NCBI RefSeq assembly: GCF_022343685.1
Contig: NZ_CP092123.1
Location: forward strand, 1,426,001-1,490,000
DNA: 64,000 bases
Origin: Marinobacterium sediminicola
GTDB taxonomy: Bacteria > Pseudomonadota > Gammaproteobacteria > Pseudomonadales > Balneatricaceae
Reading direction: 5' to 3'
Positions 9,127 through 31,245 of this stretch are shown here, piece by piece. The notes under the pieces are model-generated. The model was not told where the DNA came from and did no database searches. It saw nothing but the letters and a program-made list of their open reading frames with translations. Position numbers and translations under genes: made by a program. Position 1 is the stretch's first letter. Each line of letters opens with the position of its first letter.

Positions 9127-9140
9127 CGTAATGACTCCGA

Positions 9141-9153
9141 TTTTTGTTGTTAT
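9141..9153 (-). promoter_or_regulatory. A-rich AACAACAA leader element before the acyl-CoA ligase
   Basis: On the minus strand the leader reads GCATAACAACAAAAAT (complement of 9140-9155), then CGGAGTC, then the start codon at 9126. The same 16 bases occur in the mmsA leader (25526-25541). The pattern matches the AAYAAYAA element bound by Hfq/Crc in Pseudomonas; that function is inferred. Confidence 0.55.
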
Positions 9154-9184
9154 GCGGTCAGATGAAAGGGTTGCTCAGCCAACC

Positions 9185-9763
9185 TTAACGAAAACGTCCG
9201 TGATATTCGGGATTCGGTTGCATATCGACTGCGCTGGCCACGCGATTGGTCATATTGTAAAAGCCGGCAATGTTAGCGATGTCCCAGATACCTCTGTCAC
9301 TGAAGCCGACATCCCGCAGGGACTGACGGTCATGCTCGCTGATTTCGGCCGGACTGACAGTCAGCTTGTGAGCAAAGTCCAGCATGGCTCGCTGGCGAGG
9401 TTCAAGCTCGGCAACGCGATAGTTCATCACCATCAGTTCACCCAGCGCCGGATCTTCCGAGTATTCGCGCACGGCAGCGCCATGTGCTGTCAGGCAGTAG
9501 TAGCAGCTGTTCTCTGAAGAGACGACCACTGCGATCATTTCCCGCTCCAAAGGGGTAAGCTCGCTGTCGCCGAACATGAGTTCGTTATAGAAGCGGGTAA
9601 ACACCTCGAACTGGGACAGGTTCTGGCTGTACGCCGTGAGCACATTGGGCACCATACCCAGTTTTTCGTCACACTTGCCGAAGTATTTCTGCACCTCTTC
9701 AGGCAGCTGATGACGCTCGGGGATCGGTAGATCAAGAGCGGTGATATGATCGGGCTGTGACAT
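9185..9763 (-). CDS. AhpD-like peroxidase-related protein
   Basis: 192 residues of the carboxymuconolactone decarboxylase/AhpD superfamily, subgroup annotated as peroxidase-related enzymes. The conserved redox block is SCYYCLTAHGAAV, with the CxxC pair and downstream His, preceded by LTPLEREMIAVVVS. Family members are small all-helical proteins that reduce peroxides or act as thiol-redox partners; the exact substrate is not known. It lies in the liu transcript between liuE (61 bases upstream) and the acyl-CoA ligase, and its leader has AACGATAATAA followed by GGGG. Confidence 0.85.
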   Translation of the reverse strand: MSQPDHITALDLPIPERHQLPEEVQKYFGKCDEKLGMVPNVLTAYSQNLSQFEVFTRFYNELMFGDSELTPLEREMIAVVVSSENSCYYCLTAHGAAVREYSEDPALGELMVMNYRVAELEPRQRAMLDFAHKLTVSPAEISEHDRQSLRDVGFSDRGIWDIANIAGFYNMTNRVASAVDMQPNPEYHGRFR

Positions 9764-9776
9764 CCTTTAATACCCC

Positions 9777-9787
9777 TTATTATCGTT
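9777..9787 (-). promoter_or_regulatory. A-rich leader element before the AhpD-like gene
   Basis: Minus strand AACGATAATAA (complement of 9777-9787) is followed directly by GGGG. It is a less perfect member of the AAYAAYAA series in the branched-chain amino-acid genes. Confidence 0.35.
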
Positions 9788-9824
9788 ATACGGCACGGTT
9801 ATTCAGTATTACTGTCCGTCGTGC

Positions 9825-10733
9825 TCAGCGACCGCACTCGCCAAGCGCCAACGCGACCTTGGAGCCGTTGTGACGGCCCAGCTCGCGTGTGATCCAGTGA
9901 CCGGTGTTGACTACAGCCTGCAGATCGATACCGGTTTCGATTCCAAGCCCCTGCAGCAGGTAAAGCACATCCTCAGTGGCTACATTGCCGGAGGCACCCT
10001 TGGCATAAGGGCAACCACCGAGGCCTGCAGTGGAGCTGTCAATGACTGCGATACCCTCTTCGAGTACGGCGTAAAGGTTTGCCAGCGCCTGACCATAGGT
10101 ATCATGGAAATGAGCGGCCAGTCGATCCATTGAAACCTCCTTGCTCACGACTTCCAGCATTTTTTTGGCTTTCAGTGGTGTGCCAGTACCGATGGTGTCG
10201 CCAAGCGACACCTCATAGCAGCCCATGTCGATCAGTTCGCGGCTGACGGCTGCCACCTGTGCAGGATCAATCTCGCCCTGATAGGGGCAGCCCAGGACGG
10301 TTGAGACATATCCGCGAACTCGGATACCCGCATGCTGGGCCTGTTCGATCAGCGGACGAAAACGTTCCAGACTCTCGGCAATGCTGCAGTTGATGTTCTT
10401 CTGCGTAAAAGCTTCGGAGGCTGCACTGAATACTGCAACCTCGGGTACGTTGGCGGCAATGGCAGCTTCCAGCCCCTTTACGTTGGGGGTCAGCGCCGAA
10501 TAGGTCACACCGCTGCGACGGTTGATGCCGGCCATGACGGCAGCGGCATCTCCCATCTGTGGGACCCACTTGGGCGACACAAAGCTTGCTGCCTCGATAT
10601 GGGGGATACCGGCAGCCGCCAGGCGATCGATCAATGACACCTTGGTTTCGGTGGGGATGATCGGGCCAGGCTCATTCTGCAGGCCGTCACGGGGACCGAC
10701 CTCGACGATACGCACCTGTTGCGGAAATGCCAT
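9825..10733 (-). CDS. liuE: Hydroxymethylglutaryl-CoA lyase
   Basis: Last step of leucine catabolism: HMG-CoA is cleaved to acetoacetate and acetyl-CoA in the cytoplasm. The 302 residues have the family size. The N-terminal VEVGPRDGLQNEP carries the catalytic Arg and metal-binding Asp of the DRE-TIM metallolyase family, AHFHDTYGQALAN holds the metal-ligand histidines, and GLGGCPYAKGASGNVATEDV contains the signature active-site Cys. Its start overlaps the liuD stop as ATGA (10732-10735 on the minus strand), implying translational coupling. Confidence 0.97.
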   Translation of the reverse strand: MAFPQQVRIVEVGPRDGLQNEPGPIIPTETKVSLIDRLAAAGIPHIEAASFVSPKWVPQMGDAAAVMAGINRRSGVTYSALTPNVKGLEAAIAANVPEVAVFSAASEAFTQKNINCSIAESLERFRPLIEQAQHAGIRVRGYVSTVLGCPYQGEIDPAQVAAVSRELIDMGCYEVSLGDTIGTGTPLKAKKMLEVVSKEVSMDRLAAHFHDTYGQALANLYAVLEEGIAVIDSSTAGLGGCPYAKGASGNVATEDVLYLLQGLGIETGIDLQAVVNTGHWITRELGRHNGSKVALALGECGR

Positions 10734-30244: not shown

Positions 30245-30257
30245 AATAAGAACAAGG
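30245..30257 (+). promoter_or_regulatory. A-rich element fused to mmsB ribosome binding site
   Basis: AATAAGAACAAGG: A-rich triplets run into the AAGGA Shine-Dalgarno, ten bases before the ATG. It has one R in place of Y compared with AAYAAYAA. Confidence 0.45.
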
Positions 30258-30266
30258 AATAGCATC

Positions 30267-31160
30267 ATGGCAACAATTGCATTTATTGGTCTGGGCAACA
30301 TGGGTGGTCCTATGGCTGCCAATCTGGCCAAAGCCGGTCACACCGTTAAGGCATTTGATCTCTCTGCCAAGGCGTTGGAAATCGCCGCGGAACAGGGCTG
30401 TCAGGTGGCTGATAGCGCTCAGCAGGCCGCGACGGGTGTTGATTTCGTTATTTCCATGCTGCCGGCCGGCAAGCATGTGGAAGGCCTTTATGTCAGCGGT
30501 GAGCAGCCGCTGTTCGATCTTGTGGAGTCCCACACTCTGGTCATCGACTGTTCAACGATTGATGCCGAAACCGCTCGTCGTGTCGCCGCTGCAGGTGCCG
30601 AGAAAGGTATTGGCTTCATCGACGCACCGGTCTCAGGCGGTGTGGGCGGTGCTCAGGCAGGTACGCTGACCTTTATCGTTGGTGGTTCTGATGCCCAGTT
30701 TGAACAGGCGCGCCCAGTACTTGAGAACATGGGTAAGAATATCTTCCATGCAGGTGATCATGGCGCAGGCCAGATTGCCAAGGTATGTAACAACATGCTG
30801 TTGGGTATTCTGATGGCGGGTACCTGTGAAGCCCTTAACATGGGTGTCAAGAACGGTCTTGATGCCAAGGTTCTGTCAGACATCATGAAGCAGAGCTCCG
30901 GTAACAACTGGGCGCTTCAGGTTTACAATCCTTTCCCGGGCGTCATGGACGGTGTTCCGGCATCTCGTGACTACCAGGGCGGTTTCCAGGTGGACCTGAT
31001 GTTCAAGGATCTTGGGCTTGCCATGGAAGTGAGCCAGCAGAGCGCTGCCGCTACACCCATGGGTTCGGCTGCCCGTGCACTGTTTAACCTGCATAAATCT
31101 GCAGGCAACGGCGGTCTCGATTTCTCCAGCCTGATCAAGTTGTACCAGGACGCTGAATAA
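30267..31160 (+). CDS. mmsB: 3-Hydroxyisobutyrate dehydrogenase
   Basis: 297 residues; NAD+-dependent oxidation of 3-hydroxyisobutyrate to methylmalonate semialdehyde, the MmsA substrate. Rossmann start ATIAFIGLGNMGGPMAANLAKAG, substrate-binding DAPVSGGVGGAQAGTLTF, catalytic Lys in GQIAKVCNNMLLGI near 171. ATG 30267 is chosen on the Rossmann start and AAGGA. In many bacteria mmsB directly follows mmsA; here four genes of the pathway separate or surround them. Confidence 0.97.
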   Translation: MATIAFIGLGNMGGPMAANLAKAGHTVKAFDLSAKALEIAAEQGCQVADSAQQAATGVDFVISMLPAGKHVEGLYVSGEQPLFDLVESHTLVIDCSTIDAETARRVAAAGAEKGIGFIDAPVSGGVGGAQAGTLTFIVGGSDAQFEQARPVLENMGKNIFHAGDHGAGQIAKVCNNMLLGILMAGTCEALNMGVKNGLDAKVLSDIMKQSSGNNWALQVYNPFPGVMDGVPASRDYQGGFQVDLMFKDLGLAMEVSQQSAAATPMGSAARALFNLHKSAGNGGLDFSSLIKLYQDAE

Positions 31161-31191
31161 GCCCGTCCGGTCGGCGATTGGCAGGACCTTG

Positions 31192-31215
31192 GGGCGGCGG
31201 TGGATGCTGCCGCCC
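31192..31215 (+). other. Intercistronic hairpin between mmsB and prpE
   Basis: GGGCGGC (31192-31198) pairs with GCCGCCC (31209-31215), loop of ten, no T-run. It is the third hairpin of this kind in the valine operon. Confidence 0.5.
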
Positions 31216-31221
31216 ACGTAT

Positions 31222-31232
31222 AACAAGAATAA
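31222..31232 (+). promoter_or_regulatory. A-rich element in prpE leader
   Basis: AACAAGAATAA followed by AAACGAGGTGG, 13 bases before the ATG at 31246. It is a near-match to the AAYAAYAA series. Confidence 0.4.
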
Positions 31233-31245
31233 AACGAGGTGGAGC

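Follow-up and report, generated by a model that had tools for sequence, protein, structure and literature searches.

Hfq/Crc repression as described in Pseudomonas is the closest known counterpart of what we report here for a 64,000-nucleotide stretch of a bacterial genome (C1:1,426,001-1,490,000; hereafter the window), in which AAYAAYAA elements recur at the translation starts of a gene cluster for branched-chain amino acid uptake and breakdown. The Hfq/Crc motif is given as AAnAAnAA, perhaps with a preference for C or U, and usually lies near ribosome binding sites (PMC3480352). The distal face of Hfq takes ARN triplets and Crc steadies the complex (PMC6422490). Crc is reported to control, among other proteins, LiuABC, LiuR and BraC of P. 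aeruginosa (PMC6235884). The Pseudomonas targets (amiE, bkdR, liuABC/LiuR, BraC) resemble our cluster in bearing the same motif near the start and in including branched-chain uptake and breakdown. They differ in that our cluster belongs to another clade and carries its elements on the structural genes liuA, livG, livK and mmsA. Unlike the Pseudomonas LiuR target, the liuR leader of our host has no element at its called start.

A second point of comparison is the CbrAB-CrcZ/CrcY system of Pseudomonadaceae (RF01675). Our genome shares with it the order cbrA-cbrB-RNA-pcnB, a sigma-54 type of promoter site, GTAACA/TGTTAC subsites (PMC6296734) and several CA elements. In contrast to CrcZ/CrcY, the putative RNA of our host occurs as a tandem pair whose members share 89% identity over a 162-nt core and each have their own promoter-like site; both copies are missed by the RF01675 model, and their conserved part spans ~200 nt against 398 model positions. 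Crc likewise acts outside Pseudomonadaceae in Acinetobacter, where the available text of the report describes no CbrAB or CrcZ locus and leaves open the roles of Hfq, small RNAs and CbrAB (PMC8312277). Searches of an open-access library gave no description of such a circuit for Marinobacter, Halomonas, Marinobacterium, Marinomonas or Oceanospirillales; one paper listed there names both CbrB and Marinobacter (PMC5073097). Control of this kind is familiar. What is new is the host, together with putative decoys that have drifted and been duplicated, and the motif lying directly on structural branched-chain genes.

We consider it very likely that the branched-chain leaders are subject to Hfq/Crc catabolite repression, relieved by decoy RNAs under the control of CbrB. 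A preliminary description of the window had suggested one shared layer of catabolite repression over import and over leucine and valine degradation, a reading that the sequence features described below support.

Elements in the branched-chain amino acid cluster

The gene names liu, liv, mms and prpE are those of the preliminary description. Scanning the window for AAYAAYAA gave 15 overlapping matches, corresponding to 11 distinct elements, where shuffled sequences had a mean of 3.8 and none of 100 reached 15. Positions 9140-31234 hold 13 of the 15 matches (9 of the 11 elements). As the whole genome, a single contig of 3,554,135 bases, contains 378 matches in 3.55 Mb, this 22-kb stretch lies well above the genome density, by a factor of several. 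Seven genes carry a strict element at the start, namely those for an acyl-CoA ligase, liuC (within the coding sequence), liuA, livG, livK, mmsA and an acyl-CoA dehydrogenase (Table 1). The liuC element may be merely an Asn run.

The scan reproduced every exact AAYAAYAA coordinate given previously and bore out that the element runs directly into the Shine-Dalgarno sequence at livG, liuA and mmsB. Among the looser forms, those at mmsB (AATAAGAACAAG) and prpE (AACAAGAATAAA) fit both AANAANAA and runs of four ARN triplets, our two relaxed criteria; those proposed for the AhpD-like gene and liuB did not hold at the called starts. Several other leaders, that of hemH among them, had been described as free of the motif. 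No other strict match falls within -40..+9 of the called starts in the window; the hemH leader was inspected singly. A further match, absent from the earlier list, is AACAATAA, which lies antisense inside the 3' end of livH (20864-20871, minus).

Enrichment at translation starts

For genome-wide statistics we combined 58 evenly spaced 20-kb stretches with the window, giving 1.224 Mb or about one-third of the genome (two of 60 stretches, L142 and L143, stand outside the statistics). Genes were called by an in-house script rather than a published caller. It yielded 1072 genes, of which 59 lacked full flanks and were dropped, leaving 1013. The start region was defined as -40..+9 relative to the called translation start, and AAYAAYAA as the strict motif.

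On the sense strand, the 1013 start regions contain 27 motif positions, with a peak at -40..-21, compared with one on the antisense strand. Twenty-seven permuted motifs of the same letters had a mean of 4.8 and a maximum of 15, the latter being a period-3 relative. Backward-read motif counts across the genome provide no control, because AAYAAYAA is its own reverse. Counted by gene, 22 of 1013 carry the motif at the start; dinucleotide shuffles of each leader gave a mean of 4.3 (maximum 11 in 100) and column shuffles a mean of 3.8 (maximum 11 in 500). An interior control stretch (+60..+116) contained the motif in no gene. AACAACAA alone reaches 4.6 times its expectation at the starts of the host.

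The motif genes concentrate in the cluster at 7438-33135, where 7 of 22 genes have the motif, whereas in the rest of the sample the figure is 15 of 991 (Fisher p = 1.1e-7; the test is post hoc because the preliminary description singled out the cluster for its motif). Shuffles of the cluster leaders gave a mean of 0.3 motif genes and a maximum of 3 in 1000. With AANAANAA, 9 of the 22 cluster genes score, against 32 of the 991 others (p = 4e-8, equally post hoc). In the sampled third of the genome the motif is therefore not equally common before unrelated genes, a comparison that the preliminary description had called for.

Crc, Hfq, CbrA and CbrB

By its LiuA (compared across 80 named loci) and Crc sequences, the host is an Oceanospirillales-type bacterium and not a Pseudomonas; its nearest relatives are Marinobacterium, Neptunomonas, Amphritea and an Oceanospirillales metagenome-assembled genome (MAG). 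It appears to hold the entire control circuit. A TIGR00633 search of the genome found two family members, exonuclease III (L001) and a protein (L002) that matches the PDB entry of Crc with E = 1.8e-79 and 118 of 256 residues identical. The L002 gene adjoins rph (RNase PH) and a pyrE-type phosphoribosyltransferase gene, a setting like the crc neighbourhood of Pseudomonas. The acidic residues that serve catalysis in exonuclease III are replaced in L002. The crc orthologue that the preliminary description had proposed to look for is thus present, as L002, and distinct from exonuclease III. Hfq is also encoded (L003), with Phe at position 25 of the distal face, where E. coli and Pseudomonas have Tyr. 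Of the residues through which P. aeruginosa Crc makes its contacts (PMC6422490), L002 retains R140, E142, E193 and R229. The product of the host cbrA (982 aa) shares 45.5% identity with its Marinobacter counterpart. CbrB of the host, a protein of 459 aa with a receiver and a sigma-54 activation domain, is 65% identical to that of Marinobacter.

A Crc search at E <= 1e-20, which covered 46 genomes of the 80 named LiuA loci, was positive in 26 (Oceanospirillales-type, Marinobacter and Pseudomonas-type) and negative in 20, including Shewanella, Rheinheimera, Alteromonas, Colwellia and one Pseudomonadaceae MAG. CbrB follows nearly the same division among 28 genomes. Nineteen of the 20 with Crc have it at E <= 1e-100 (18 at 64% identity or more, Marinomonas at 50%; G013 has none), and of the eight without Crc, one has a match at 43% and seven have none. 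CbrAB has been called unique or exclusive to Pseudomonadaceae (PMC8871633, PMC6296734). This exclusivity looks wrong.

A CrcZ-like locus between cbrB and pcnB

Outside the window, the motif piles up in an intergenic region at C1:3,201,457-3,202,271, in the order cbrA-cbrB-[two tandem RNAs]-pcnB-folK. No gene lies in the stretches in which the elements are stacked. A span of 330 nt holds four strict elements, of which one precedes a promoter-like site; over such a span the 1.22-Mb sample never exceeds two. The two putative RNA copies lie ~597 nt apart, each preceded by a TGGCAY-N6-TGC site and a GTAACA site. The sigma-54-type sites, TGGCATGAATGATGC and TGGCACGAGTAATGC, are consensus matches only, as are GTAACA at 7, 64 and 663 and TGTTAC at 21 after the cbrB stop. 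TGTTAC and GTAACA are the subsites of CbrB in P. putida (PMC6296734). A GGTAACAC...GTGTTACC palindrome stands ahead of the first copy. Sigma-70 promoters and intrinsic terminators showed no excess over shuffles at the two copies.

After its promoter-like site, each copy has three strict elements and one AATAAAAATAAAAA element, in the order AACAACAACAAC, AATAAAAATAAAAAC, AAYAAAAATAACAA, AACAAAAACAACAA. In the predicted fold, AAYAAAAATAACAA occupies the loop of a GCCTCG/GAGGC hairpin and AACAAAAACAACAA a hairpin loop within a long closing stem. Ten RNA copies from seven genomes could be aligned (L217 and L224 were too divergent). RNAalifold returned 15 pairs, 10 of them with changes on both sides, and 94% of cells pair. 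Of five measures, four were reached by none of 500 shuffles and the fifth by 8 of them; slid structures scored far lower, in a test on the same alignment from which the structure was derived.

The arrangement recurs in relatives. Eighteen of 19 cbrB loci from genomes with Crc have a sigma-54-type site in the interval after cbrB along with four or more A-rich elements, the exception being Allopseudospirillum. Five controls, four NtrC-type paralogues and the 43% relative from a genome without Crc, have zero to two elements, and one of them has a sigma-54-type site. A cluster of strict A-rich elements in Allopseudospirillum japonicum lies on a contig other than that of cbrB (L183:2381-2719; weak matches, RF01675 0.004 and our model 5.5e-4) and is possibly a relocated decoy. 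In Marinobacterium rhizophilum (L209) and M. profundum (L211), cbrB is likewise followed by a pair of RNA copies and two sigma-54-type sites; our genome is therefore not the only one with the tandem duplication.

Our covariance model of the RNA (R1) has exactly two matches in the host genome. In the order it matches at least 9 of 145 genomes, a lower bound because the search of more than 40 genomes used stricter filters. All nine are among the 113 genomes with a Crc match, some of which may be exonuclease paralogues at that threshold. Two genomes from outside the model, G177 and G120, have an R1 match between cbrB and pcnB and are better held-out cases than G083, whose close kinship to the MAG Bin78, a member of the model alignment, makes it not independent. 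Weaker matches occur in G052, G053, G095, G150 and G178 (1e-5 to 1e-3) and in Marinomonas, Allopseudospirillum (L183) and DT_74 (1e-4 to 3e-3).

The Rfam model of CrcZ, RF01675, has no match in our genome or at its cbrB-pcnB locus. It exceeds its cut-off in six of six Pseudomonas-group genomes, falls below it (1e-9 to 1e-12) in three of three Marinobacter, and gives matches of 1e-4 to 1 elsewhere, genomes without Crc and controls included. The Marinobacter loci below the cut-off have the order cbrA-cbrB-CrcZ-like RNA-pcnB (L179:5239-5640, L180:4516-4924, L181:4726-5129). In gamma proteobacterium L18, RF01675 finds a tandem pair ~665 nt apart (G041:C5:406139-406517 and 406804-407182) and a further copy at C15 adjoining cbrB.

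Conservation of the elements in relatives

The start sets of relatives, unlike our own, are liu loci that hold related sequences and are therefore not independent. Crc was tested in 11 of 11 Oceanospirillales-type, 7 of 8 Marinobacter and 8 of 22 Pseudomonas-type members and in 19 of 38 of the group without Crc, and the remainder were grouped by genus. The MAG L035, where the search gave no Crc, is outside the groups for enrichment and A-rich orthologue counts, and is counted with Pseudomonas for the strict motif. Relative to expectation, AANAANAA occurs at starts 1.9 times in the host, 3.0 times in Oceanospirillales, 3.0 times in Marinobacter and 3.5 times in Pseudomonas, compared with 1.1 times in the group without Crc. 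For forms with at least one C the values are 7.2, 5.5, 10.5, 8.9 and 2.3. The A content of leaders is 0.35 in the group without Crc versus 0.26-0.32 in the other sets.

Followed orthologue by orthologue in relatives, the strict motif is patchy. We then adopted a looser definition, under which an A-rich element is a AANAANAA match that contains one or more C or T. In Oceanospirillales this element is present at livG (3/3), livK (3/4), mmsA (2/2) and the ligase (5/5; also 8/8 in Marinobacter), which together make 13 of 14 loci compared with 34 of 180 genes overall, under a criterion picked post hoc. The acyl-CoA dehydrogenase has it in 1/3 Oceanospirillales. For liuA it is found in 5/7 Marinobacter, 11/22 Pseudomonas and 7/38 of the group without Crc. 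That group has it in 0/14 orthologues of mmsA, 0/17 of the acyl-CoA dehydrogenase, 0/11 of prpE and 4/16 of mmsB. The coding element of liuC is not conserved (0/39 with Crc, 1/35 without). The comparison with relatives that the preliminary description had called for thus gives a mixed picture: in its A-rich form the element recurs at livG, livK, mmsA and the ligase, while it is weakly conserved at liuA and lacking at liuC.

Motif-bearing genes elsewhere and cluster content

Outside the cluster, the motif genes are a mixture in which, judged by eye, uptake and catabolism are well represented. The 15 sampled genes encode a thiolase, a short-chain dehydrogenase, TctC-type and DctP-type solute-binding proteins, a nitrite/sulfite-reductase-like protein, a chemotaxis receptor, four regulators, an iron/B12-type permease, shikimate kinase, ftsA, atpA and a large surface protein. 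A 1704-aa SpaA/prealbumin-fold surface protein (L126:6609-11723) has AACAATAACAA at -35 and a strong Shine-Dalgarno sequence. We also mapped motif-dense places within -80..+30 of starts. These were picked for the motif from lists of its sites, the one for AACAACAA covering the first 100 of 144 places, and are neither unbiased nor part of any statistic. They include starts of a sodium:solute symporter and its DUF4212 partner, a Rieske ketosteroid-hydroxylase-like protein, an MFS protein, acyl-CoA ligases, a DmpM-type protein, a catechol-dioxygenase-type protein, an XylR/DmpR-type regulator, a ring-hydroxylating oxygenase, two DctP proteins, malate synthase G, a carboxylase, an aldehyde dehydrogenase and an acyl-CoA dehydrogenase; the remaining sites are intergenic, internal or antisense. 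Gene kinds of this sort are Crc-controlled in Pseudomonas (PMC3003667, PMC3480352, PMC6235884).

Family scans of the cluster agreed with this gene setting. They matched a fatty-acid CoA ligase, an AhpD-like protein, HMG-CoA lyase, biotin carboxylase, enoyl-CoA hydratase and carboxyltransferase; an acyl-CoA dehydrogenase, a MerR-type regulator, a Liv/Urt-type ABC transporter, ferrochelatase and an AraC-type regulator; and methylmalonate-semialdehyde dehydrogenase, acyl-CoA dehydrogenase, enoyl-CoA hydratase and 3-hydroxyisobutyryl-CoA hydrolase. Further matches are 3-hydroxyisobutyrate-dehydrogenase-type and acetyl-CoA-synthetase-type proteins.

Table 1. Elements of the branched-chain cluster (window coordinates) and the putative RNA copies (C1 coordinates); offsets are relative to the called translation start.
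Feature	Element	Position	Strand	Offset	Gene or remark
acyl-CoA ligase	AACAACAA	9144..9151	minus	-25	7438-9126, minus
liuC	AATAACAATAA	13517..13527	minus	+6	12733-13533; inside codons 3-6
liuA	AATAACAATAA running into AAAGGTGG	16405..16415	minus	-22	15227-16393
livG	AAAAACAACAAGAGG, five ARN triplets	17115..17129	plus	-27	17142-17963
livG, strict core		17118-17125	plus	-24	
livK (liv binding protein)	AGAAATAACAATAAAAAT, six ARN triplets	18681..18698	plus	-37	18718-19917
livK, strict motif				-34	
livK stop codon	AATAACAATAA across the stop	19913..19923	plus		113 nt before livH
mmsA	AACAACAAAAAT	25531..25542	plus	-35	25566-27059
acyl-CoA dehydrogenase	AACAATAAAAAA	27108..27119	plus	-30	27138-28292
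mmsB, looser	AATAAGAACAAG running into the Shine-Dalgarno	30245..30256	plus	-22	30267-31160
prpE, looser	AACAAGAATAAA	31222..31233	plus	-24	31246-33135
putative CrcZ-like RNA, copy 1		C1 ~3,201,510-3,201,715			
putative CrcZ-like RNA, copy 2		C1 ~3,202,110-3,202,310			
tandem RNA locus		C1:3,201,457-3,202,310			L186:1958-2811

Proposed mechanism and alternatives

What we computed comprises the motif with its position, strand and enrichment, the presence of Crc, Hfq, CbrA and CbrB, and the synteny and structure of the CrcZ-like locus. From these features we infer that the two RNAs are transcribed, that Hfq/Crc binds, and that repression is imposed and relieved. The elements would be distal-face binding sites for Hfq (CA motifs, runs of ARN triplets) at ribosome binding sites. 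On a preferred carbon source, Hfq aided by Crc would cover the leaders of livG, livK, liuA, mmsA, the acyl-CoA dehydrogenase and the ligase, and probably also those of mmsB and prpE, blocking translation. On a poor carbon source, CbrA-CbrB would activate the sigma-54-type promoters of the two tandem CrcZ-like RNAs, whose A-rich elements would draw Hfq away and free the messages.

Several observations weigh against this model. The strict motif is also found at 2.3-2.7 times expectation at starts of the group without Crc, and therefore part of the motif has another cause. An upstream control stretch of our own genome (-140..-84) holds it in 7 of 1017 genes. The post hoc p-value of the cluster rises to ~1.6e-5 after allowing for ~140 clusters of this size, and 5 of 13 strict or looser forms in the cluster lie off-start, in coding sequence or fail the criteria (19913, 20864, liuC, AhpD, liuB). 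The A-rich element is absent from the ligase in 19/19 Pseudomonas orthologues and present at liuA in only 3/11 Oceanospirillales. Some Crc contact residues have changed relative to P. aeruginosa (K155P, M156I, F231T, and R to K at 196, 230 and 233). Finally, R1 fails to recognise the copies of Pseudomonas and of Marinobacter, where its E values start at 0.35, so that a common descent of all these decoys rests on place, promoter and elements.

The changed contact residues leave some room for a model in which Hfq alone represses via its ARN sites and Crc has another role in this host. The distal face of Hfq does bind ARN repeats by itself (PMC6422490). Crc and CbrB co-occur, in 19 of 20 genomes with Crc as opposed to a single 43% match among eight without, and against this pattern we regard Hfq acting alone as unlikely. 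Slightly less likely still is that the elements enhance translation, as unstructured A-rich leaders that recruit ribosomal protein S1 or leave the ribosome binding site accessible, without any repression. The strict motif in genomes without Crc would fit this, as would ftsA and atpA, both with the motif at -7. However, AANAANAA stays at 1.1 times expectation without Crc despite the A-richer leaders there, against 1.9-3.5 times with Crc; the same element is stacked in gene-free stretches between cbrB and pcnB; and many motif genes belong to catabolism and uptake, by eye and with no formal test. A product of chance or composition, from AT-rich leaders and the TAA stops of upstream genes, is very improbable and was rejected: several elements do contain TAA, one spans the livK stop and the upstream control is not empty, but the shuffles, the antisense, permuted-motif and interior controls and the excess of AACAACAA and of forms with at least one C all speak against it.

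Taken together, we favour repression by Hfq/Crc with relief by CbrB-driven decoys. We further propose that this CbrAB-CrcZ type of circuit is probably no invention of Pseudomonadaceae but an older and much wider system of Pseudomonadales and Oceanospirillales, missed because the decoy, although constant in place, promoter and A-rich elements, drifts in sequence until the Rfam model no longer covers it. The decoy would have been duplicated in tandem in the Marinobacterium-like branch, with branched-chain amino acid use among the densest target sets. This would extend the carbon-ranking circuit of Pseudomonas to its relatives among the Oceanospirillales and Marinobacter. In the host, motif starts are also found on genes of aromatic-degradation type and on those for a solute symporter, malate synthase and TRAP uptake. 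The analysis offers a covariance model for an RNA that has gone unrecognised, and it sets lineages that have Crc beside others that lack it, all with a similar liu cluster.

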